From a bacterium (GTDB lineage Bacteria > Zhuqueibacterota > QNDG01 > JAFGCO01): a DNA stretch of 64,000 bases. Positions within the stretch are counted from its first letter, which is position 1, and each line of letters begins with the position of its first letter. Below are positions 707 through 14,349 of this stretch, one piece after another. The notes beneath the pieces were generated by a model. That model was not told the DNA's origin. It did no database searches and worked only from the letters and a program-made list of their open reading frames with translations. A program made the translations under genes and the position numbers. The stretch is from the NCBI GenBank assembly GCA_016932575.1, contig JAFGCO010000067.1, forward strand, positions 1-64,000, given 5' to 3'.

Positions 707-3076
707 TCAGCGGGTGAGTGTCTGCGGTTCAGCGCTCATCACGGACAGGTGATTGCGGTGATGAATCACAAGATAATAGGCTCCGTCCTCCGCGTCAAAC
801 AGCACCCCCTGGGTGCCGCTCATATTGCATAGGTAGCCGTTCCTGCTGAGCAGCGCGCTGCGCTGTTCCACGGCCGGTCCGGCCGGGTCGGTGCGCAGCT
901 CCACCAGCACCCAGTCCGCGATGCTGTCCGGTATGGCCGTGCAGGTGGCCGGCGCTTCCAGATAGGGGGACTCGGACGGCAGATGTCCGCCCGAATTCAA
1001 ATCCAGGCGCAGCGTGTCCCCGCCCGCCTCATACGCGCCCCCGATGAGCACCCGGGCATGCACTTCGAGTGCGTTGACCGTGACAGCTTCGAAATTGGAC
1101 CAGTTCCACCACTGGCCGTCCGCTTCCGCCCGCACACGGAACGCATAATGGCCGCTTTCCGAAAACTGCACATTCTCACTTTCCGAGGTGATCGAATTAT
1201 CGTAAGTCGTCCACTCGGATATATACGCATTGTTGATACTAAAATCATCAAAAAAGAATCTGCCATTTACATAACCAATATCCCATGCGTTTATTTCGTT
1301 AATACTCCATCGAAGCATGACCGATCGATTATGATACGCTGCAAGCTCCGAAGAAGGGATCGACTCATAAATCCAGACCTGATCTGTGGTATTGTAACTC
1401 TTTAATGTTTCCCATTCCACTCCGTCAAGTGAAATTTCCAATCTTGCTTCCAGACCATCAAACCATACTGTTGCCCAATAATAATTAATTGTTGATGTAT
1501 TACTGATATATATTGCTTTCTTAAGTGTTAATGAGCTAAATTCAGAATATACATAATCGCTGCCGCTCAGTCTTATAAACCACCCGCAAAATGAAGACGG
1601 AGAACTTTTTTTAATACTTGTATTGATTTCCCACTGTTTCCATACATCCCAGTCATTAAAATTCTCAGCATAATCAGTAAAATTCGGACTGTAATCATTA
1701 AAATTTACAGACTGCAAATCATAACTTGTTGCATTTAAGAAACCAGAAACATCCCATGATAGTGTGGTATCACTGCTTATAATTGTTTCTGACAATTCAT
1801 TCATAACCGGCGACGGGAGAATGTCCACTATTGCATTCGGTATTAAATAATAAGTATTTCCGGTAGTCACAATGGGCTCTTCAAGGTTGTACCACCCCTC
1901 CGGATTGCTCGCGGGATATCCATATCCACGCCATCCAAGATTGATATGAAAATACTTGTCTTCCCCTGTATTGTGCCGGACGCCGTCCACAACCACACTG
2001 TGTCCGCCACCTGAGCGGCGGATGGACAGGATAGCGGAACGCGAATCTTCCATATTTGAATACAGTTTATCAAGAAATGTCGCAGAGCTGTCCAGATATT
2101 CCCCTGAGTAACGAAAAAACCTCTGTAAGGCCTGATCGATTAATTTCGGAGAGGCCGACGATCCGGATGCTGCATAATCCATTTCCACTGCGATCCCGCA
2201 ATGCGATGTCAGCAACCCTGCTGCCTGCCTCTGGATTTCCGTGCCGCCGCTCTGATAACTGTCTAACATATTCGCCCAGTCATAGGCAGCCGCTGAAAAA
2301 TCAGCGGACAGCACTTCGGCAGGATCACTGCCGTTGTCCCAGGTATAGGAGTAGGAATTGGTCCCGGTGGGCGGCCATTCATAATAATTCATCACCTGGG
2401 CCATGGCTGTCGCGACACATCCGCACACGTAATTCCCGGCGCTGCCTTCCGCGTACGGGGGGGTATAATAATTCCATACTGCCAGACCATGGACAAAATC
2501 ATTATTGTGCGTGCCCTGCCCCCAGGTCGAAGCCAGGAACGGTCCGAATTCCACGTCATACTGCAATTTCGAGAGTCCTGCTTTTTCGAGCCCCCGAAGC
2601 TGGCCGCTGCCGGCCGATTCGAGTGCCTGCCTTTTGCCGCGTGCGCGGTCGATACGATCCTGCGGTACCGCGCCGTCGCGAAGCGCGCGCATGCGCTCCG
2701 GAATATCCGCGCGCAGCAGGTGCAGCAGAACATTTTGTTCTGTTTCCTCGGCCATAAACCGGGATTCCGTGGAATAAGCAATCACAGGAGTCATGCGGTC
2801 ATCCGGAGACACGACTACATAGCCTGTGGGTTCCAGGTCCACTACATAGGCAACAATTTCCTCCCCTTTCTCGTCTGTCACCTCGAGCACCGCTTCTCCG
2901 GCTTTGAACGGCTTCTTCGCCTGTTCCGCGCGTACATAGGGCGGGCTGGTTTTCAGCCAGCCTTTGGCAATATTCTTAATATTTGTTTTTTCTGTACTTG
3001 CGGCATTGCTGTATTGAAGCGTGAATACGGATAAAAAGAGAGTTGTTAAACATGTCCATCGAAATAAAAAAGACAT
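707..3076 (-). CDS. Secreted C10-family (streptopain-like) cysteine protease with C-terminal HRNHL module
   Basis: The start is taken at the second Met (MSFLFRW), nine codons inside the longest frame. It gives a clean signal peptide (to about residue 25) and has GGGGAT upstream. Residues ~30-130 resemble the Spi/streptopain inhibitory propeptide (DEKGEEIVAYVVDLEPTGY). The catalytic Cys sits in GCVATAMAQVMNYYEWP (about C220). The catalytic His sits in GGHSVVVDG (about H359), followed by HINLGWRG, which corresponds to the NWGWGG segment of streptopain. A beta-sandwich region of ~300 residues follows. The last ~115 residues form a module shared with two neighbours, ending VIHHRNHLSVMSAEPQ. It probably degrades extracellular protein; self-activation by propeptide cleavage is inferred from the family. 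No dockerin-like repeats follow the module in this copy. Confidence 0.85.
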   Translation of the reverse strand: MSFLFRWTCLTTLFLSVFTLQYSNAASTEKTNIKNIAKGWLKTSPPYVRAEQAKKPFKAGEAVLEVTDEKGEEIVAYVVDLEPTGYVVVSPDDRMTPVIAYSTESRFMAEETEQNVLLHLLRADIPERMRALRDGAVPQDRIDRARGKRQALESAGSGQLRGLEKAGLSKLQYDVEFGPFLASTWGQGTHNNDFVHGLAVWNYYTPPYAEGSAGNYVCGCVATAMAQVMNYYEWPPTGTNSYSYTWDNGSDPAEVLSADFSAAAYDWANMLDSYQSGGTEIQRQAAGLLTSHCGIAVEMDYAASGSSASPKLIDQALQRFFRYSGEYLDSSATFLDKLYSNMEDSRSAILSIRRSGGGHSVVVDGVRHNTGEDKYFHINLGWRGYGYPASNPEGWYNLEEPIVTTGNTYYLIPNAIVDILPSPVMNELSETIISSDTTLSWDVSGFLNATSYDLQSVNFNDYSPNFTDYAENFNDWDVWKQWEINTSIKKSSPSSFCGWFIRLSGSDYVYSEFSSLTLKKAIYISNTSTINYYWATVWFDGLEARLEISLDGVEWETLKSYNTTDQVWIYESIPSSELAAYHNRSVMLRWSINEINAWDIGYVNGRFFFDDFSINNAYISEWTTYDNSITSESENVQFSESGHYAFRVRAEADGQWWNWSNFEAVTVNALEVHARVLIGGAYEAGGDTLRLDLNSGGHLPSESPYLEAPATCTAIPDSIADWVLVELRTDPAGPAVEQRSALLSRNGYLCNMSGTQGVLFDAEDGAYYLVIHHRNHLSVMSAEPQTLTR

Positions 3077-3156
3077 TTCTATATCCCCGTTTGTCTCATG
3101 CATGAATATATATTATAAAAGGCAAATGCTGTGCCGGGAATGTTATTTTTATAACT

Positions 3157-3364: not shown

Positions 3365-5650
3365 CTATGGAACCGGGGAACTCTGACCATTGTTTGGACG
3401 CCATACAAGATTTTTATCAACCGCAGTTACTGCTCCATCAATATTCATATCCGCATCCAAGTAACCGATATTGCCGTTATCTGGCCTCCAAACAAGATTT
3501 TTGTCAATCGCAGTCACGGCCCCGTCATTGTTCGCATCCCCAGCATACATACCATATACACCTGTATCCACTGTTTTTGCGTAATTATTATAATTATTAG
3601 TGATATTGTTGGTAAAATTGTATACTGTTGAACTGATATCACTCATTGGATGGGCCGTGGACGACATCGTTTTCAAATGATTCCGATGATCAACTTCAAT
3701 ATAATAACTGCTGCCTGATGTCGCATTCATAAAAATATATTCGGTCACACCGTCATCCGCGACGACCATGCCGTCATTTCTCAATAACGCGCTGATGGAA
3801 TCCACGTATGCCAACCCCGGAGACTGCCTTAACTTCACATATACCCAGTCCACAATATCATCAGAAGGAATTTCCTCGACCTCCCGGTTATCGGGATAAG
3901 GAGATGTGATCGGTAAAAATCCATATCCATTCATTGTTGTTTTCATGCTGTCACCGGTCGCGTCATAGGGCCCTTCAAGAAAAACCTTCAGGGCGACCCG
4001 GACATCTGTTGTATTGATAGTGATGGTCTGGTCCGCAGACACATTACGGCTGGTGGCGCGGCGGCCGCATACAAATTCCACGGTCACATCCACAGCCGTG
4101 TGGGTTCCCAGCCCGAAATGCAGCACCGGATCATTCTGCCCAAGGTAACCGATAGCGCCGCATGCTTCCCTGAGCCCGATTTGAGTCAGATTGCCTCCCC
4201 GTTTGGGGTAAATCCCCCCCTGATTCTCGGGAGACACATAGACCTTGGCCCCGAAAGCGCCCGCCTGGCCCTGGGGAGAGACAAGCTTGACTTTCAGAAA
4301 ATGATAGGATGTGCTCAGCTGGTTCTTGATCACATGGGCCCACGAAAGTTTTCCGGTCATGACAAAATCAAGGTCACCATCATTGTCCAGATCTGCGAGC
4401 GCCACGCTTCTGGGATCATCCACATCCGCGTTGGGAATGCTCACCGTGGACGAGGGGCTTAATGAGCCGGAACCGTTGTTCATAAAAGGCGCGGAATATC
4501 CAGAAACCACGAGATCCAGCCAGCCGTCATTGTCCAGATCGCCGAACGCGCCACAATAGCCGTCCACCTCGCTCCATCCCTGGAATTCCTTGAAATAGGT
4601 GCCCGGCTGAATCGGATCCGGATTGTACAGATTGTTCGTAAACAGATGGGAATCGTTCCCGTTCACTTCAATACAGAAAAGGTCAAAATCACCGTCATTG
4701 TCAATATCCGCCAATGTGGCGCCTTCACCCATCACGCCCGACGAAGTATCGCCGCTGACCGTGCTCACAAAGAATCCGGTAATCGAGGAATCGTCGATGG
4801 CCGTGTACGTTCCGTTTCCGTCACTATTTTGAAGCACATACGGTTTCCCGTTACGGTTTCCGGCAAACAGATCCATGTCTCCGTCATTATCATAATCAGA
4901 GGATGTGGCTCCCTGAGCCACCTTCGCCGTGACCAGCTGACCTCCGGTAATGCTCGAATAGCTCCAGCTTCCTGCATCCTTTTGATAAAATTCATCGGGA
5001 TGCGAGGTGGCATAAGGAACGTCAATATCCCCTCCCCGGTAACCGGCCACGCCATAAATATCCAGATCCCCGTCACCGTCTTTATCCAAAGCGATCACAC
5101 CGCGCGTTTTCTTCAACGTGCCTGAAATGTCCGAATCGATCATTTCGGTAAAATAAGAGGGGCCGTCATTCCTGTAGAGCTGAATGGGTTCACCGGTGCT
5201 TCCGCCTGACGCGATCGTTCCTCCGTTAATTAAATCATAATCTCCGTCATTGTCCAGATCCGCCCAGCATGCCCCGTGTGTGCCATAGTCGACATCTTCG
5301 ATATGATAGGTATAGCTCATTTTTGTAAACTGAAAATCACCATCGTTGATGAAAAACCGTTCGTGGCAATTCTGATTGTGATAGATTGTAATATACATGT
5401 CGGTACGTCCGTCCCCGTTCACATCCGCAAAACAGACGCCATGGGGCCAGAGCGTATAGGTTTCGCTTTTCACTTCGGCACAGGTGCTGTCCACAAAGCT
5501 CAGGGCTGAAAGCGACGGCGGCGAAACGCCTTCGGTTTTCCTCGGCGCGCTGCTGTTCTGCAATTCCGCCCTGCCGTGTACCGTAAAAAGCCAGAATCCG
5601 GCCATGATGAACAGCATGGCACACACAATTTTTTGTAGCTGCCTGCTCAT
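3365..5650 (-). CDS. Secreted FG-GAP/VCBS repeat protein with ASPIC/UnbV domain, HRNHL module and dockerin-like repeats
   Basis: ATG start with GAGGGGGG a few bases upstream. A signal peptide covers about residues 1-28. Residues ~40-440 hold repeated DLDNDGDxD calcium-binding FG-GAP/VCBS motifs, which form a beta-propeller in integrin-like proteins. Residues ~445-545 match the ASPIC/UnbV (CRTAC1) pattern (HFLKVKL, GAFGAKVYV, LHFGLG). The HRNHL module shared with the two flanking genes follows. The last ~60 residues contain two dockerin-like calcium loops, DANNDGAVTAID and DMNIDGAVTAVD, each followed by KNLVWRPxNG, ending SSPVP. It is likely a secreted or surface-displayed binding protein. It is the only protein here with both the module and the paired loops, so it may show the ancestral C-terminus. 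Ligand unknown. Confidence 0.85.
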   Translation of the reverse strand: MSRQLQKIVCAMLFIMAGFWLFTVHGRAELQNSSAPRKTEGVSPPSLSALSFVDSTCAEVKSETYTLWPHGVCFADVNGDGRTDMYITIYHNQNCHERFFINDGDFQFTKMSYTYHIEDVDYGTHGACWADLDNDGDYDLINGGTIASGGSTGEPIQLYRNDGPSYFTEMIDSDISGTLKKTRGVIALDKDGDGDLDIYGVAGYRGGDIDVPYATSHPDEFYQKDAGSWSYSSITGGQLVTAKVAQGATSSDYDNDGDMDLFAGNRNGKPYVLQNSDGNGTYTAIDDSSITGFFVSTVSGDTSSGVMGEGATLADIDNDGDFDLFCIEVNGNDSHLFTNNLYNPDPIQPGTYFKEFQGWSEVDGYCGAFGDLDNDGWLDLVVSGYSAPFMNNGSGSLSPSSTVSIPNADVDDPRSVALADLDNDGDLDFVMTGKLSWAHVIKNQLSTSYHFLKVKLVSPQGQAGAFGAKVYVSPENQGGIYPKRGGNLTQIGLREACGAIGYLGQNDPVLHFGLGTHTAVDVTVEFVCGRRATSRNVSADQTITINTTDVRVALKVFLEGPYDATGDSMKTTMNGYGFLPITSPYPDNREVEEIPSDDIVDWVYVKLRQSPGLAYVDSISALLRNDGMVVADDGVTEYIFMNATSGSSYYIEVDHRNHLKTMSSTAHPMSDISSTVYNFTNNITNNYNNYAKTVDTGVYGMYAGDANNDGAVTAIDKNLVWRPDNGNIGYLDADMNIDGAVTAVDKNLVWRPNNGQSSPVP

Positions 5651-5740: not shown

Positions 5741-7663
5741 TTATTCCAGGCCGACCGGATCTGCGCTCATCACAGGCAAATGATTCCGGTGGTTAATTAC
5801 AATATAATAATTTCCGGGATCAATTTCCAGCCAAATCTGTCCGGTGATGCCGTCATCGGCCACGACCCTTCCGTCCTGGTGCAGAAAAGAGCTTCTCGAA
5901 ATAACAGCGTCTCCGGATGCGGTTTCGCGCAGCTGCACGAGTACCCAGTCCACAACTCCCGACGGAATCTCTTCCACAGTCCGAAGATCTTCCTCATAGG
6001 GCGCCGTAAGCGGCACCTCGTCCCCGGTATTCAGGTCAAGTCGCATCTGGGAAGAAGAGGACTCGTACGCGCCTTCCAGAAAGATCCTGGATTTCAGGGT
6101 GCAGCCAAATCCCACTGCCACCGCCCAGTCCGATTGTGAAGGCAGTGTCACGGTCTGATTCTGTGCCTCAAGCCATCCGAGCCCGATTTCTGCGTAGGGC
6201 GCCAAAGCATTGACAGCTATAGCAAATCTCGGGCCAGGCATGCCTGACAAATCCATATCAACAGAGGAAGCGTCTTTGATGTAAAAGATGTAATCCAGGA
6301 GGTTCGGACGTTTCAGGCAGTATCCGTCGGTGATGGTGTTGTCCCGGACCATATCCTGATGAAACCGGTCCTGCATGAATGTGGCATAGGTCTTAATGCA
6401 GGCCGCGCTGTCATAGGGCAGCGAAGAATACCCCGGGCCTTCTTCATAGACCCAGCTGCTGTTCATGAAATTACCCCAGATATTCGCCACGCCGCCGGCC
6501 ATCGTGGAATAATAAAGCCCCCGGATGGTCATTAACTCAGTATAATCTTTTTCTGGACTAAATCCGCGGATTCGAAACCGGTCTTCAGAAAAAACAGGCT
6601 GGTTTGGAATGGCGTCAAAAGCGGCCATATACACATTTATATCCGGCAGATGATGTTCATAGCTTGAATAATCGAGCCCGTCATTCCAGGAAATGTAAGG
6701 GCTGTGATCTGTGCCTGTATTTGGCCCGGCCGGTCGTCCGCCTAAAAAATGGGGCCAGCCTCCGAAATACTGATGCAGATGAAAATGCCAATATTCAAGT
6801 TCTTCTTCATCACCCCAAATTTCCCCCTCATATTCCTCAGTACCAAGATCGAAGCCATACCCCATGGACCATCCGGGCAGGGGCCCCAGCCGCCCCGCGA
6901 TGTACCGCAAAAGGCGGTGATGAACATCACTGTCATATCCCCATCGCGAAATAGACGCACGATGCTGTGCATCACCCCACTGCCAGATATGGACCATGCC
7001 GCCCGCCGCATGGGTTTCGGCAATCACATATTCCACGCACTGAAAGGTTTCAGGATCCGGATTGGGATCTTCACTCAGATTGTCCCATGTGCCTTCACCG
7101 AGCTGAAACCACTGGCAGGCGCATGTAAAATGAAATCCGCTGAATCCGTGTCCGGCAATAAAGGTCTGAATTCTCTCATCCGTGGATACCTGATCCTGAT
7201 ACGCCGGATTGGGAAACATGACCAGCTGCGGCACAAAGGCGGTTTCAGTTCCCTGCCAGCCCCATCTGTTGCCGAAATTCCTGAGAAATCCATGGGTGCC
7301 GGGATCCGGATTCTCATTGATGGTTACGGATCCGGCCCGTCTGTCTAAATCCGCATTGTCGCTGAATGATTCATAATTCCAGGTTCCGGTTTTTGTTCCG
7401 GTAAACCGGAACTTCCAGCCCTCCCAGGTATCGGTCGAATCGTAAAACATGAGTGTTCTGACCGTATCTCCGCTTCCCGAATGGGTAAATTTTACAGCGG
7501 CAATGACATCAAAGTGATTTCCGGAATAGGAGACATCGGATTCAGGGATTTCCCACTCCATATACGGAGACCACTGCGTGCCTGTCTGGCCGAATAACTG
7601 CATGAAAGTACATAAGATCCCTCCGATCATCACCTTATTTACTGCCCGGGTCCGCAAGCGCAT
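5741..7663 (-). CDS. Secreted DUF5060/DUF4038-type glycoside hydrolase with HRNHL module
   Basis: ATG start, AGGAT about nine bases upstream, signal peptide to about residue 27 (ends LFGQ). Residues ~30-120 look like the DUF5060 beta-sandwich (WEGWKFRFTGTKTGTWNYES). The next ~380 residues look like a TIM-barrel glycosidase of the DUF4038/apiosidase-like group (GFSGFHFTCACQWFQLGEGTWDN, PVFSEDRFRIRGFSP, YYSTMAGGVANIWG). The glutamate in PVFSED and the acids in GYDFDLGTEEYEGE-like segments are candidate catalytic residues, not proven. The C-terminal ~115 residues form the shared module (VINHRNHLPVMSADP) and stop there, as in the C10 protease. Substrate unknown; probably a plant or microbial polysaccharide. 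Confidence 0.75.
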   Translation of the reverse strand: MRLRTRAVNKVMIGGILCTFMQLFGQTGTQWSPYMEWEIPESDVSYSGNHFDVIAAVKFTHSGSGDTVRTLMFYDSTDTWEGWKFRFTGTKTGTWNYESFSDNADLDRRAGSVTINENPDPGTHGFLRNFGNRWGWQGTETAFVPQLVMFPNPAYQDQVSTDERIQTFIAGHGFSGFHFTCACQWFQLGEGTWDNLSEDPNPDPETFQCVEYVIAETHAAGGMVHIWQWGDAQHRASISRWGYDSDVHHRLLRYIAGRLGPLPGWSMGYGFDLGTEEYEGEIWGDEEELEYWHFHLHQYFGGWPHFLGGRPAGPNTGTDHSPYISWNDGLDYSSYEHHLPDINVYMAAFDAIPNQPVFSEDRFRIRGFSPEKDYTELMTIRGLYYSTMAGGVANIWGNFMNSSWVYEEGPGYSSLPYDSAACIKTYATFMQDRFHQDMVRDNTITDGYCLKRPNLLDYIFYIKDASSVDMDLSGMPGPRFAIAVNALAPYAEIGLGWLEAQNQTVTLPSQSDWAVAVGFGCTLKSRIFLEGAYESSSSQMRLDLNTGDEVPLTAPYEEDLRTVEEIPSGVVDWVLVQLRETASGDAVISRSSFLHQDGRVVADDGITGQIWLEIDPGNYYIVINHRNHLPVMSADPVGLE

Positions 7664-7994: not shown

Positions 7995-8030
7995 AAAAAG
8001 CCGCCGGAGCACTCTCTCCGGCGGCTTTTT
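7995..8030 (-). terminator. Rho-independent terminator for the cohesin-like gene
   Basis: Perfect 15-bp inverted repeat (7995-8009 with 8016-8030, core GCCGCCGGAG) around a 6-base loop, with a T6 run on the minus strand. It lies 215 bp past the stop at 8245, with the heptamer repeats between. The rest of 7664-8244 shows no gene. Confidence 0.85.
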
Positions 8031-8164
8031 ATCATATTTATATCACTGTTGTTTTCATATTGTTCGGGCATTATCATTTTCACCATTTTTGCCCTTTTAC
8101 TCTATCGAACCTGATTCTCCCGCCTTATCGTTTACTGATTTGTTTTTCTCTGCTTTTATGTCTT

Positions 8165-8241
8165 TTCCTTGTTTCTTGCTTCTTATTTCTTGTTTCTTGT
8201 TTCTTATTTCTTGATTCCTGTTTCCTGATTCCTGTTTCTTG
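8165..8241. repeat. Tandem heptanucleotide repeat, about 11 units of WTTCYTG
   Basis: Eleven consecutive 7-bp units read (A/T/C)TTC(C/T)T(G/A) on the plus strand. On the minus strand they read CAAGAAA or CAGGAAT. The array starts three bases past the stop codon of the cohesin-like gene and lies in its predicted 3' untranslated region. Units differ at one or two positions. Confidence 0.9.
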
Positions 8242-8244
8242 TCT

Positions 8245-9330
8245 CTATCTTATCAGCGTCATCTTCCGCATCTGGACAAAATCGGCGGCCTGCATGCGCA
8301 GAAAATACACACCACTGGCCAGTTTCTGACCTCTGTTATTCGTGCCGTCCCAGGTTTCTGTGTACCTTCCGGGCATTTGCTGCTTGCTGTAAATAGTTGT
8401 TACCTCCTTGCCCAGCAGGCTGTACACCTTGATGGTTACATCCGCAATTTCAGGCACGTCATAGGTGAATGTGGTCAGCGGATTAAACGGATTGGGATAA
8501 TTCTGTTCCAGAGCGAACACTTCGGGAATAATCCTGGCTTCGACCGAAATGGGACCGTACTGCTGACTGCTGCCGTCCGCGCCTTTTTCTTCGATCTTGT
8601 AATATAACGTGCCGTTTGTTTCAACATTCGCATCCACGAATGTGTATTCCGCGCCGGAAGAATTGTTGCCCTGGCTCGAAATGAGGCTTGTGGTTAAGAG
8701 CTCGTATTCGCCGTCTTCCGTATCCGAACGCCATACATGAAATCCCATGCTGTTCACTTCACTTTGCGTGGTCCAGCTGAGTTCGATGCCTTCCACTGTG
8801 GATTCAGCCTGAATATCAGTCATCTGGACGGGCAGTGAAACATCAAGGTTATTTAAAACACCCGGATCCAATAATGTTGTATTATCATCATCAAAAGCAG
8901 AAAATGTTACATCAGAACCAAGCCAAACAAGATTCGATGATTGACCCGCATCATCTACATCAAACCGAACGGTTGCTACATCCATCCAACCTGTGGTGAC
9001 ATCTATACCATTATCAGCAATTAAAAGCTCAATATTGACAGATGCATTGCTGGGATTAGTCACAGTCATTGTTTCATAAAAAGTACCACTGAAATTATGG
9101 GCGACAAGCAGTGATGCGTTACTTAATGCTGACGTATTATAATCAAAAGAAAAGTTTGCGTCGCCCAGCTTATCCCAATCTGTATTATTTCGCTTGATCT
9201 GTACTTTTACGTCAAAATGAACTTGATCATTCGTAATCACCACAAATTGAAGATCAAAATCATCGGCTGCAAATAAACTGACAGTCATTATTGCCAGCAA
9301 TATACAAATCACTTTACCTTTATGTGCCAT
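8245..9330 (-). CDS. Secreted cohesin-like protein with T9SS-type C-terminal sorting domain
   Basis: ATG start with GGGAG upstream and a signal peptide to about residue 22 (SLFAADDF). Residues ~25-165 form an all-beta domain whose layout recalls cohesins (QVHFDVKVQIKR, LGDANFSFDYNTSAL, WMDVATVRFDV). This is an inference from pattern, not a close match. Residues ~170-265 look like an Fn3-type segment (ELSWTTQSEVNSMGFHVWRS), common in FCB secreted proteins. The last ~90 residues are a FlgD-Ig-like/T9SS type A domain (NYPNPFNPLTTF, GVYFLRM, ending KMTLIR). The gene starts 20 bp after the stop of the dockerin-like gene, so the two are probably co-transcribed. The T9SS machinery itself is not in the window. 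Confidence 0.7.
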   Translation of the reverse strand: MAHKGKVICILLAIMTVSLFAADDFDLQFVVITNDQVHFDVKVQIKRNNTDWDKLGDANFSFDYNTSALSNASLLVAHNFSGTFYETMTVTNPSNASVNIELLIADNGIDVTTGWMDVATVRFDVDDAGQSSNLVWLGSDVTFSAFDDDNTTLLDPGVLNNLDVSLPVQMTDIQAESTVEGIELSWTTQSEVNSMGFHVWRSDTEDGEYELLTTSLISSQGNNSSGAEYTFVDANVETNGTLYYKIEEKGADGSSQQYGPISVEARIIPEVFALEQNYPNPFNPLTTFTYDVPEIADVTIKVYSLLGKEVTTIYSKQQMPGRYTETWDGTNNRGQKLASGVYFLRMQAADFVQMRKMTLIR

Positions 9331-9350
9331 TTTTTTTCTCCCATATTATT

Positions 9351-9821
9351 TTAAGGAACAACCGTACTTAAACCATTATTTGGACGCCAGTATAAATTCT
9401 TGTCAACCGCAGTTACGGCTCCGTCCAAATTTAAATCTGCATCAAGATATCCAATCAAACCATTATTCGGCCGCCAATATAAATTTTTGTCAACTGCCGT
9501 AATAGCGCCATCACCATTTGCATCGCCACAAATCATCCCCCACACACCCGGTTCCAGTTCCTTGGCACCGCTCGCACCCCCGTAAATACTGTCCACTACC
9601 GTAAAATCATAGAGTGTCACGGCCGATGTGCTGCGATTGGGCATATGACTTGTCAAAATATAAGTACTATTTTTATGTTTGGCAAGCGGTTTTTGAACTT
9701 CGTTCTGATCCTGATTCTGAGTGACGGATTTATCTTCCGGCGGGGTTTGCGCCAAGCATACGCCGCTGATCAGCACGAGTATTAAAGTGACACAACACAT
9801 AACACGATCTCTTTTTATCAT
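9351..9821 (-). CDS. Short secreted protein carrying paired dockerin-like calcium loops
   Basis: 156 residues. ATG start preceded by AAAGGACAGGGGT, and a signal peptide to about residue 25 (GVCLA|QT). After a polar linker (~25-60), the segment ILTSHMPNRSTSAVTLYDFT resembles the end of the HRNHL module. The final ~55 residues hold two EF-hand-like loops, DANGDGAITAVD and DLNLDGAVTAVD. Acidic residues sit at loop positions 1, 3, 5 and 12 as in dockerins. Each loop is followed by KNLYWRPNNG, and the protein ends STVVP. It has no catalytic domain. It appears to be a stand-alone docking module made with the cohesin-like protein; that pairing is an inference. Confidence 0.7.
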   Translation of the reverse strand: MIKRDRVMCCVTLILVLISGVCLAQTPPEDKSVTQNQDQNEVQKPLAKHKNSTYILTSHMPNRSTSAVTLYDFTVVDSIYGGASGAKELEPGVWGMICGDANGDGAITAVDKNLYWRPNNGLIGYLDADLNLDGAVTAVDKNLYWRPNNGLSTVVP

Positions 9822-10044
9822 ACCCCTGTCCTTTCCCTGTTTAATTTAACCGATAAAAATCCTCAATTTTTAATGCATAAATCATTCCAAACGAACTGGT
9901 AAGCATCCATTTAAACATGTTTTCTGACATTAGGCTCAAATGAAACGTTTGAATATACTAAAAATATTGTTAAAAAACCACCCATAATAATCAGATTTCC
10001 GGAAAAAACTTCCCTGTCCGGCTGATATTGCCCTTTCCTGGCTG

Positions 10045-10079
10045 AGACCTTGCGAAGGTCAACCACCTTCGCAAGGTCT
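10045..10079. terminator. Strong hairpin in the divergent gap, possible terminator of an unannotated transcript
   Basis: A perfect 15-bp stem (AGACCTTGCGAAGGT, 10045-10059, pairing with 10065-10079) has a 5-base loop and is followed on the plus strand by TTCTATTCTTA. No recognised gene ends here; the genes on either side run away from it. Confidence 0.5.
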
Positions 10080-10205
10080 TTCTATTCTTAAAATATCTCA
10101 ATCGTTCTGCCGGATTTATCCGCCGGGTCATTTTCCTTTTGAATTTCATGGGAAATTTAATTAAGTTAATGATCGAGCTTTGGTAAATTCTGAGTTTGTA
10201 AAATC

Positions 10206-11497: not shown

Positions 11498-11529
11498 TCC
11501 CATCCATAAAAAGATAAAAGGGATCCTTG

Positions 11530-12897
11530 ATGAAACCACTTAACCGCAGCGTTGCCGGCATCCGTGGCATCTGGGGTGAAAACCTGACACCGGACGTGGC
11601 CGTTAAATTCGCAGCCGCGTTTGGCACCTATCTGAAAAAGGGCAAAGTTATCATCGGCCGGGACACGCGCGCGTCCGGTGAAATTCTCACACAGGCCGCG
11701 CTGACAGGACTGGCCTCTTCAGGTTGTGATGTCACCGACATCGGCATTGTACCCACGCCGACATGCCAGCTGGCTGTGGAAAATAATGTGGTGGACGGCG
11801 GTATCGTGCTCACGGCCAGCCACAATCCCGGAGAATGGAACGGCCTGAAATTTATAAACAGGGAAGGCCACTTTTTAAGTCAGACGGAATACGAAACATT
11901 AATACGGATTTTTGACAACAACACAATCGAATACGTTCAGCATCCCGGCTTTTGTAATCTGCAGCAGGGACCGGACTTTAACCGGGATGCGATTGATATG
12001 CACATCCACAATTTAATGAAGCACATCAATGTGCAAAACATTCGAGAAAAAAAGTTTAAAGTGGTTCTGGACGCTGTCAATGGCGCCGGTTCCCGTCTGC
12101 TCATTCCCCTCCTGGAACAATTGGGATGCACAGTCATCACGCTTTACTGTGATGAATCCGGTGATTTTCCCCGCGGCCCGGAACCTATGCCGGAACATCT
12201 TGGAGCGCTTTGCAGCCGGGTAACAAAAGAAAAAGCGGATATCGGATTTGCCGTGGATCCTGATGCGGACAGGCTGAGCCTGGTTACCGAGACCGGACGT
12301 GCGCTTGGCGAAGAAATGACCCTGCCGCTCGTTGCCCGTCATGTGCTGTCGCGCAGTCCGGAAGGCAGTATTGTCACCAATCTCAGCACATCCATGGCCA
12401 TCGATCACGTGGCCCGTGAATATCGGGTGCCTGTCATACGCACAAAAATCGGGGAAGCCTATGTGGTAGATGGCATGAAAAAAAACCAGTGCCTGATCGG
12501 TGGCGAAGGAAACGGCGGCGTGATTTTTCCTGCTGTGCATTACGCCCGGGACACCGGTGTGGGAGTGGCACTCATCCTCGACAGTCTGGCAGCATCCCGG
12601 CAATCCCTTTCACAAACAGCGCAGTCAATCCCGGCCTTTGTCATGATCAAGAAAAAAATGGAAGTTCCTCTTGAAAAAATTGCCCCAGTCCAGGAAGCCC
12701 TGAAAACCCGTTACACAGATGCTGAAATCGACACACTCGACGGTGTAAAAGCCGTCTGGAAAGACCGGTGGCTGCACGTCCGCAAGTCCGGCACCGAAGG
12801 GTTGCTGAGGATATTCACAGAGGCAAGTGATCAGAAAAAAGCCGATGAACTGGCCATTCAGGCAATTCAACTGATCGAATCAATATTAAAAACCTGA
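11530..12897 (+). CDS. glmM: Phosphoglucosamine mutase-like alpha-D-phosphohexomutase
   Basis: 455 residues. The ATG is preferred over the TTG just before it because of its spacing from AAAGGGAT. All four phosphohexomutase domain signatures are present: the catalytic phosphoserine loop TASHNP (about S97), the metal loop DPDADRL, the sugar-binding loop GGEGNGG, and the phosphate-binding loop RKSGTEGLLRI near the end. The N-terminus (SVAGIRGIWGENLTP) and TASHNPGEWNGLKF resemble the archaeal/Bacteroidota-type GlmM rather than the enterobacterial one. The probable reaction is glucosamine-6-P to glucosamine-1-P for UDP-GlcNAc and peptidoglycan synthesis. A glucose or mannose phosphate substrate cannot be excluded. 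It is followed 66 bp later by a second mutase. Confidence 0.8.
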   Translation: MKPLNRSVAGIRGIWGENLTPDVAVKFAAAFGTYLKKGKVIIGRDTRASGEILTQAALTGLASSGCDVTDIGIVPTPTCQLAVENNVVDGGIVLTASHNPGEWNGLKFINREGHFLSQTEYETLIRIFDNNTIEYVQHPGFCNLQQGPDFNRDAIDMHIHNLMKHINVQNIREKKFKVVLDAVNGAGSRLLIPLLEQLGCTVITLYCDESGDFPRGPEPMPEHLGALCSRVTKEKADIGFAVDPDADRLSLVTETGRALGEEMTLPLVARHVLSRSPEGSIVTNLSTSMAIDHVAREYRVPVIRTKIGEAYVVDGMKKNQCLIGGEGNGGVIFPAVHYARDTGVGVALILDSLAASRQSLSQTAQSIPAFVMIKKKMEVPLEKIAPVQEALKTRYTDAEIDTLDGVKAVWKDRWLHVRKSGTEGLLRIFTEASDQKKADELAIQAIQLIESILKT

Positions 12898-12963
12898 AAT
12901 TGTTACTTCAGATGATTTATTTTGATAAAATGAAGTCTGGTTAATGATAGAGAGGAGCATGTT

Positions 12964-14349
12964 TTGATCAATCCCAATATATTTCGCATGTATGATATAC
13001 GCGGCATTGCTGACCAGGATTTAAGCAACGAAGCCGTTGTCCGGATAGGAAAAGCCTATGGCACATTTGTGAAGCGCCGGAACTGCAAAACCATATCTGT
13101 CGGACGCGATGTCCGGCTGACCTCGGAGCGCATTAAAAACGCCCTTGCAGATGGCGTGCGCTCCACAGGGATCAACATCATCGATATTGGTGTATGCCCG
13201 ACCCCGGTCGTCTATTATTCTCTTGAACATTTAAAAACCGACGGTTCGGTCATGATCACAGGCAGCCACAATCCAATTGAATTCAACGGCCTGAAAATGA
13301 ACCTCGGCATGCTTTCGATTTATGGCGACGACATCCTGCATATAAAATCCCTCATTGAACAGAATGATTTTGAAACCGGCCGGGGCTCACTTAAAGAAAA
13401 AAACATTTTACCCGAATACCAGACCATGCTGAAAAAGAAAATTAAACTGAACCAACCGTTCAAAGTCGTGATGGACGCAGGCAACGGCACGGCCGGTCCT
13501 GTTGCACCTGAAATTTTTCGAGCCCTGGGATGTGAAGTCATTGAACTCTATACAGAACCGGACGGCCGGTTCCCCAATCACCTGCCCGATCCGACAGTGA
13601 TGAAAAATATTCGGGATCTTCAAAAAAAAGTTGTGGAAGAAAAAGCCGCATTCGGCCTGGGATACGACGGAGATTCTGACCGTGTGGGTTTGATTGACGA
13701 AACGGGAAATCCGGTATATGCAGATAAAATTCTGGCTCTGCTCGCCAGAGACGTGCTGGAACGGAATCCGGGTGATACCATTATATTTGATGTAAAATGT
13801 TCTCAAATGCTCCCGGAAGAAATCGAAAGACTCGGCGGTAAACCTCTCATGTGGATGACCGGTCATTCGTTGATTAAAAAGAAGATGAAAGAAGAAGGCG
13901 CGCCCCTGGCTGGAGAAATGTCCGGTCATATATTCTTTAAAGATGGTTATTTTGGATTTGACGACGGAATTTATGTGTCTCTTCGGTTCGCAGCATTTTT
14001 ATCGCGTCAGCAAAAAACTGTCAGCCAGCTGGTTGATGAGCTGCCAGTATTTATGTCCACACCTGAAATTCGCGTATCCTGTCCGGATGCAGAAAAATTC
14101 AGTATAGTAAAACAGTTGGTGTCGGATTTCAGGAAGGATTATCCGGTCATCGATGTGGATGGCGCACGCGTTCAATTTGGCGACGGATGGGGACTGGTTC
14201 GTGCATCAAATACACAACCGGCCATGGTTATGCGTTTCGAGGCCAAAACGGAAAAACGAATGAATGAAATTCGACAGATTTTTCGAAAAGAACTATTGAA
14301 ATATCCATCCGTGCAAATGAATGAAACAGACGAAGACTCGGGCCATTAA
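12964..14349 (+). CDS. Phosphomannomutase/phosphoglucomutase (AlgC/ManB type)
   Basis: 461 residues. TTG start with AGAGGAG 7 bases upstream; the nearby ATG at 12959 hits a stop at once. The N-terminus NIFRMYDIRGIAD is typical of AlgC-type PMM/PGM. The phosphoserine loop is TGSHNP (about S101), the metal loop GYDGDSDRVG, the sugar loop GEMSGHIFF, and the phosphate loop RASNTQPAMVMRFE. It interconverts mannose- or glucose-6-phosphate and the 1-phosphate, supplying NDP-sugars for surface polysaccharides. It is probably co-transcribed with the upstream mutase; the two have different loop sequences and so probably different substrates. Confidence 0.85.
   Translation: MINPNIFRMYDIRGIADQDLSNEAVVRIGKAYGTFVKRRNCKTISVGRDVRLTSERIKNALADGVRSTGINIIDIGVCPTPVVYYSLEHLKTDGSVMITGSHNPIEFNGLKMNLGMLSIYGDDILHIKSLIEQNDFETGRGSLKEKNILPEYQTMLKKKIKLNQPFKVVMDAGNGTAGPVAPEIFRALGCEVIELYTEPDGRFPNHLPDPTVMKNIRDLQKKVVEEKAAFGLGYDGDSDRVGLIDETGNPVYADKILALLARDVLERNPGDTIIFDVKCSQMLPEEIERLGGKPLMWMTGHSLIKKKMKEEGAPLAGEMSGHIFFKDGYFGFDDGIYVSLRFAAFLSRQQKTVSQLVDELPVFMSTPEIRVSCPDAEKFSIVKQLVSDFRKDYPVIDVDGARVQFGDGWGLVRASNTQPAMVMRFEAKTEKRMNEIRQIFRKELLKYPSVQMNETDEDSGH

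Follow-up and report, generated by a model that had tools for sequence, protein, structure and literature searches.

A conserved dockerin and cohesin-like gene pair, probably part of a surface-assembly system in a phylum with type IX secretion

Plug-and-socket assemblies of the cellulosome type are known chiefly from Gram-positive anaerobes. The closest described relative of the locus reported here is that of Candidatus Stygibacter (Cloacimonadota), for which dockerin-bearing enzymes and a cohesin scaffold sorted by the type IX secretion system (T9SS) were proposed from genomes (PMC8542988). Noncellulosomal cohesin and dockerin modules (Peer et al. 2009, cited in that paper) are likewise cohesin- or dockerin-like and lie outside the cellulolytic Firmicutes.

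The present locus lies in the window, by which we mean the whole analysed stretch of 64,000 nucleotides (contig JAFGCO010000067.1, phylum Zhuqueibacterota). It consists of two genes on the minus strand separated by 20 bp, as the initial annotation correctly had it: a gene for a 156-residue secreted free dockerin (9351..9821) and, downstream of it, a gene for a 361-residue anchor protein (8245..9330). The reading that we favour, and hold to be probable, is that this pair forms one small transcription unit belonging to a surface-assembly system of cohesin and dockerin, made of an anchor and two dockerin ligands, one tier of which appears to have been dismantled.

The gene pair and the free dockerin

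Strong terminator-like hairpins are found on both sides of the pair, a bidirectional one of 15 pairs past the anchor gene (7995..8030, either strand) and one of 16 pairs upstream of the dockerin gene (10044..10080, plus strand), so that the two genes probably form a transcription unit of their own. Short CTTGTTT-like repeats occur just past the anchor gene (8160-8250), and two consecutive genes that read from their sequence as phosphomannomutase/GlmM-like occupy positions 11527-14349.

The 156-residue protein starts with a Sec-type signal peptide recognised by inspection (residues ~1-25), continues with a linker that holds a remnant of the X-module described below (~26-70) and closes with a two-loop dockerin (~95-156), ending in ...VP. 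The two calcium loops and the segments after each are encoded at 9354..9540 on the minus strand. This protein had been described as little more than a signal peptide and two loops; both elements are there, but it is more than that because residues 26-70 are linker and X-module remnant. Its calcium loops, DANGDGAITAVD and DLNLDGAVTAVD, are both intact. The Pfam dockerin model PF00404, with a cut-off of 22.9 bits, gives it 16.7 bits and the full-length FG-GAP protein encoded nearby 20.2 bits, both under the cut-off, while the tail of the FG-GAP protein alone, a close match to the dockerin of the 156-residue protein, reaches 23.0 bits and exceeds it. A family profile built from 32 relatives retrieves solved dockerins, with a best E-value of 7e-4 and the X-dockerin of CipA (2b59) among them, and a simple loop criterion recognises loop 1 in 53 and loop 2 in 60 of the 67 family members and both loops in the 156-residue and FG-GAP proteins. 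The two perfect dockerin loops first noticed in the free dockerin are thus borne out.

Repeats 1 and 2 of this dockerin are near-identical as protein, with a dN of 0.13, and their synonymous sites are saturated, which indicates conservation and not a recent copy. At five variable dockerin positions, which were picked by the analyst and not from a contact map, identity amounts to 0.56 between the two repeats of one dockerin versus 0.15 between loci, and none of 5000 shuffles reaches this value. In cellulosomal enzymes, a dockerin generally presents two similar faces to which a cohesin can bind (PMC5429695), and by our analysis the repeat match at the variable positions resembles that of such dual-binding dockerins; the symmetry could instead stem from an old history of duplication.

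In the relatives that were read, the dockerin comes after a module of ~115 residues with an HRNHL motif, which we call the X-module, and the X-dockerin forms the C-terminal end of the protein. The alignment shows that the 156-residue protein retains just the C-terminal end of that module. This leftover, and the observation that no other dockerin protein was found to lack an X-module (two short candidates for further free dockerins turned out to be contig-end fragments), would suit a gene that is the dying remnant of an in-frame deletion and has no present function. Such a fate seems improbable to us for a gene whose signal peptide and both loops are intact, whose repeats and match to the FG-GAP dockerin are strongly conserved in the face of saturated synonymous sites, and which has kept its position directly upstream of the anchor.

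X-modules and the arrangement in relatives

The FG-GAP protein (761 residues, FG-GAP / UnbV_ASPIC, 3365..5650, minus strand) ends in an X-module and a dockerin (3368..3985, minus strand) whose motif is that of the free dockerin, and is a candidate cargo; it is the only X-dockerin protein in the window's genome. It had been put forward as the dockerin-bearing neighbour of the pair, and it does carry such a dockerin, but its gene lies two genes off, with that of a 640-residue DUF5060 protein in between (5741..7663, minus strand). The DUF5060 protein ends in an X-module without a dockerin, as does a 798-residue C10 peptidase (707..3103, minus strand) whose chain also includes an inhibitor domain of the Spi type (I69). 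Altogether, 18 X-modules were found in the window's genome; 17 of them end the protein within 0-4 residues, without a dockerin, and the FG-GAP protein alone retains one. No dockerin is hidden past the stop codons of these 17 X-only proteins, which include C10, C25 and C1 peptidases, beta-helix/pectate-lyase-like proteins and lectin-domain proteins. Among relatives, X-only proteins were seen at contig ends only. In a tree of X-modules, which rests on short modules, the X-only modules are scattered among the X-dockerins (parsimony gives 8 changes, against 12 or more in shuffles), and this tentatively suggests several losses of the dockerin.

Two other regions of the same genome may be mentioned. 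Eight tandem X-only secreted proteins are encoded at G000:C24:68296-85801 (L193), several of them beta-helix/pectate-lyase-like with lectin-like domains and none with a dockerin or a T9SS tail. A C25 (gingipain-family) peptidase of 1700 residues, encoded at G000:C20:75218-80320 (L197:5219-10321, minus strand), ends in an X-module and not in a T9SS tail. Known members of the C25 family are typically T9SS substrates.

That X-modules stay intact without a dockerin implies a role independent of it. One could imagine that the X-module itself directs sorting or anchoring, as another type of C-terminal domain to which the dockerin is an optional addition, and both the 17 proteins of the window's genome that end in an intact X-module, a C25 peptidase among them, and the conservation of X in the absence of the dockerin would agree with this. 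We find the proposal doubtful, for the X-module has no resemblance to the T9SS tail (a profile comparison gave an E-value of 0.39, and homology with that tail was discarded), in relatives it does not close the protein, being followed there by the dockerin, and its fold brings to mind nothing specific: a structure model of the X-dockerin, made from four window rows, is confident just for residues ~21-110, and its search against the PDB returned weak matches, mostly of Ig/FN3 types, the best with an E-value of 0.37.

Judged by domain make-up, the proteins of relatives are of three kinds: putative cargo, which carries an X-dockerin; an adaptor, with cohesin, X-module and dockerin; and an anchor, with cohesin and T9SS tail. 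In the loci that were read, all 67 X-dockerin proteins end within 5 residues and none has a T9SS tail. The 57 cohesin-family ORFs divide into 38 with a tail, 15 with an X-dockerin, none with both and 4 with neither, three of the latter being fragments or open-ended. The gene order cargo, adaptor, anchor is frequent (e.g. L080, L094, L095, L087 and L085). The gene directly upstream of a relative's anchor usually codes for an X-dockerin protein; adaptors are often found there, and in many cases cargo that has no cohesin. Apparently, relatives use this conserved gene order to build cellulosome-like surface assemblies.

Some loci are worth describing individually. L083 (G009:C29, 869-9592) has four genes in a row. 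Their three dockerins differ in motif, a cohesin-family gene comes after each, and the arrangement has the look of a chain whose links are encoded in sequence. A locus common to three genera (L098, L099 and L177) has a pair of anchors that differ in size, dockerins of two motif classes and an adaptor of ~860 residues whose first dockerin repeat is degenerate; a subtilase is also present in L098 and L099.

The motifs of cargo dockerins within a locus have a mean identity of 0.57, mostly 0.8-0.9, with three loci at 0-0.07, while identity is 0.10 between cargo and adaptor dockerins and 0.16 between different genomes. A motif shared among cargo and differing in the adaptor fits two tiers of dockerin specificity, as far as sequence can indicate this. 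Compared with such an arrangement, the window's genome looks like a reduced version of the relatives' system. The 156-residue gene stands where relatives have their X-dockerin gene; that it descends from an adaptor is a guess, since the X-dockerin protein encoded at that place in relatives is in many cases plain cargo, with no cohesin of its own. It would make sense if the loss of the adaptor's cohesin and the losses of cargo dockerins belonged to one event.

The separation of tail and dockerin raises the question of the route by which tail-less dockerin proteins reach the surface, whether alongside the anchor or on their own. The T9SS channel, SprA, is encoded in the window's genome (SprA_N, E 8.8e-36) and in nearly all relatives, and about 150 proteins of the window's genome bear T9SS tails. 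Since the dockerin proteins have no such tail, export in trans can be proposed: they would bind the tail-bearing cohesin protein in the periplasm and cross the T9SS channel together with the anchor. This is compatible with the reading that we prefer and goes further, in making the cohesin both an anchor and an adaptor for export. It would account for the lack of tails on all 67 X-dockerin proteins of genomes that have SprA, and for the tail of the partner encoded next door in a genome so rich in tail-bearing proteins. On the other hand, the 17 X-only proteins of the window's genome have neither dockerin nor tail and must therefore take another export route or stay in the periplasm, and we think it rather unlikely that export in trans takes place. 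Equally little likelihood is given to the larger scheme in which the tail-bearing cohesin is such an export signal, orthogonal dockerin classes impose a two-tier order of cargo, adaptor and anchor, and the genome has been caught midway through dismantling its cargo tier.

The anchor, its cohesin-like domain and a model for the system

The 361-residue anchor protein comprises a signal peptide, a cohesin-like domain (residues 22-170, 8821..9267, minus strand) which is single-copy in the genome, a linker/Ig-like region and a T9SS type A C-terminal sorting domain (8248..8535, minus strand). The sorting tail recognised from the start is confirmed by TIGR04183, which gives the C-terminus 35.5 bits for a cut-off of 23.

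The designation "cohesin-like" holds at the level of remote profile homology, but the window's domain itself has no match in Pfam, PF00963 included. The family profile, built from relatives, aligns over ~100 columns with 21 Pfam-recognised cohesins of the phylum, which themselves match solved cohesins, with an E-value of 1.2e-4; a profile of anchors only gives 5e-4 against Pfam-type cohesins, and control comparisons with unrelated modules give 0.25-0.44. The probabilities of the comparisons with cohesins are 31-55% and the E-values are modest. Against the PDB, the sole matches of the anchor profile below an E-value of 1 are two cohesins, 1g1k and 2vn5 (E 0.41-0.52, neither significant singly). 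PF00963 matches two of 34 anchors, the best at 9e-5. The N-terminal domains of adaptors belong to the same family as the anchor domains (profile E 1.7e-19); taken alone they match cohesins weakly (E 0.015), and the adaptor of one relative exceeds the PF00963 cut-off, with 38 bits versus 24.1. An AlphaFold2 prediction of the 361-residue protein from its single sequence, without relatives, has a pLDDT of 37. We take the N-domain of the window's protein to be a very divergent cohesin, remotely homologous to those known.

The association with dockerins is strong. When the window's domain was used as sole query, which makes for the least biased count of linkage, 13 other loci were found in the phylum, and in 10 of them a dockerin gene on the same strand ends directly upstream. 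In a search with the family profile, 47 of 75 domains, in 28 genomes, have a dockerin directly upstream, where ~7e-4 is expected per domain by chance; this count leans upward because the search profile included domains found beside dockerins. Order and strand of dockerin and cohesin are kept across many families of the phylum. Of 82 genomes of the phylum, 33 have the cohesin-like family, 33 have the X-module and 31 have both (P 7e-18, too small a value since related genomes are not independent). Ordinary Pfam cohesins were considered as the dockerin's partner and rejected: they are present in most genomes of the phylum yet unlinked to the X-dockerin, occurring in 28 of 33 genomes with it versus 42 of 49 without. 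Three more Pfam-type cohesins lie in the window's genome, at G000:C20:43688-44011 (L114), C14:9176-9499 and C18:261093-261368, and the L114 and C18 proteins carry T9SS-like tails. Genomes without X-dockerins encode proteins of ~2200 residues with several Pfam cohesins (G019:C179, G015:C25, G017:C16, G065:C76 and G070:C336), which are possibly scaffolds or a separate use of cohesins. That the N-domain is some other beta-sandwich, e.g. a carbohydrate-binding one, which binds no dockerin and whose gene is a mere neighbour, would be in keeping with the missing Pfam match, the modest profile scores and the low pLDDT, but is quite unlikely given the strong, specific linkage and co-occurrence with dockerins and the fact that only cohesins appear among the PDB matches below an E-value of 1.

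In the surface-assembly reading that we prefer, the anchor would be exported by the Sec pathway and then by the type IX secretion system via its C-terminal domain, so as to display its single divergent cohesin at the cell surface. Its predicted ligands are the free dockerin and the FG-GAP protein, which would bind in a presumably calcium-dependent manner and either compete for the anchor's cohesin or take turns; with a common motif and near-identical repeats, each dockerin could bind either way round. The adaptor of relatives would gather dockerin-tagged cargo of a second class and dock in turn onto the anchor. In the window's genome, the 156-residue gene has most likely been stripped down to signal peptide and dockerin and, given also the 17 proteins with an X-module and no dockerin, one tier appears to have been dismantled. 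The free dockerin would now most likely occupy the anchor, as a relic adaptor or a cap.

Comparison with described systems

The initial annotation had envisaged a cellulosome-like assembly outside the known Firmicutes and ruminococcal systems. The term "cellulosome-like" claims too much for the window taken by itself, as the full design is found in relatives only. The window's genome has one cohesin-family domain, in single copy, versus a scaffoldin with several cohesins in a cellulosome; its dockerin proteins are the FG-GAP and 156-residue proteins only, with no dockerin-bearing polysaccharide-degrading enzyme among them; no CBM was found in the window's system, and the cargo consists mostly of peptidases, FG-GAP and beta-helix proteins. 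As for its being outside the known systems, those of Firmicutes and ruminococci do differ, but a T9SS-sorted cohesin scaffold has already been proposed for the Cloacimonadota (PMC8542988). In the open-licence papers that were searched, we found no account of a conserved gene pair of dockerin and cohesin, nor of T9SS anchors that have one cohesin and are accompanied by adaptors, nor of X-only proteins.

The conserved pair in a T9SS-bearing phylum points to an outer-membrane version of such assemblies that has an anchor, adaptors and dockerin classes of its own and serves mostly peptidases and adhesin-like proteins. It also supplies new cohesin-dockerin candidates from which assemblies could be designed.

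Like the system described here, the Stygibacter complex combines enzymes with C-terminal dockerins, peptidases among its cargo and a cohesin protein whose C-terminal domain is of the T9SS type, but it is built on one scaffold of 3,755 residues with tandem cohesins and CBM2/CBM3 (PMC8542988), whereas the window's phylum has single-cohesin anchors, cohesin-X-dockerin adaptors and a conserved order of dockerin and cohesin genes. The anchor resembles T9SS type A substrates in its TIGR04183/Por_Secre tail, and the difference is that its apparent partners are tail-less. With the clostridial and ruminococcal cellulosomes (type I/II, CipA X-dockerin), the system shares a dockerin with two calcium loops and symmetric repeats, a module that immediately precedes it (the X-module is likened to the X module of CipA by position and not by common descent) and an adaptor dockerin unlike that of the cargo. 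It departs from them in that a T9SS tail replaces Gram-positive anchoring, each protein has one, very divergent cohesin, and the cargo is mostly made up of peptidases, FG-GAP and beta-helix proteins.
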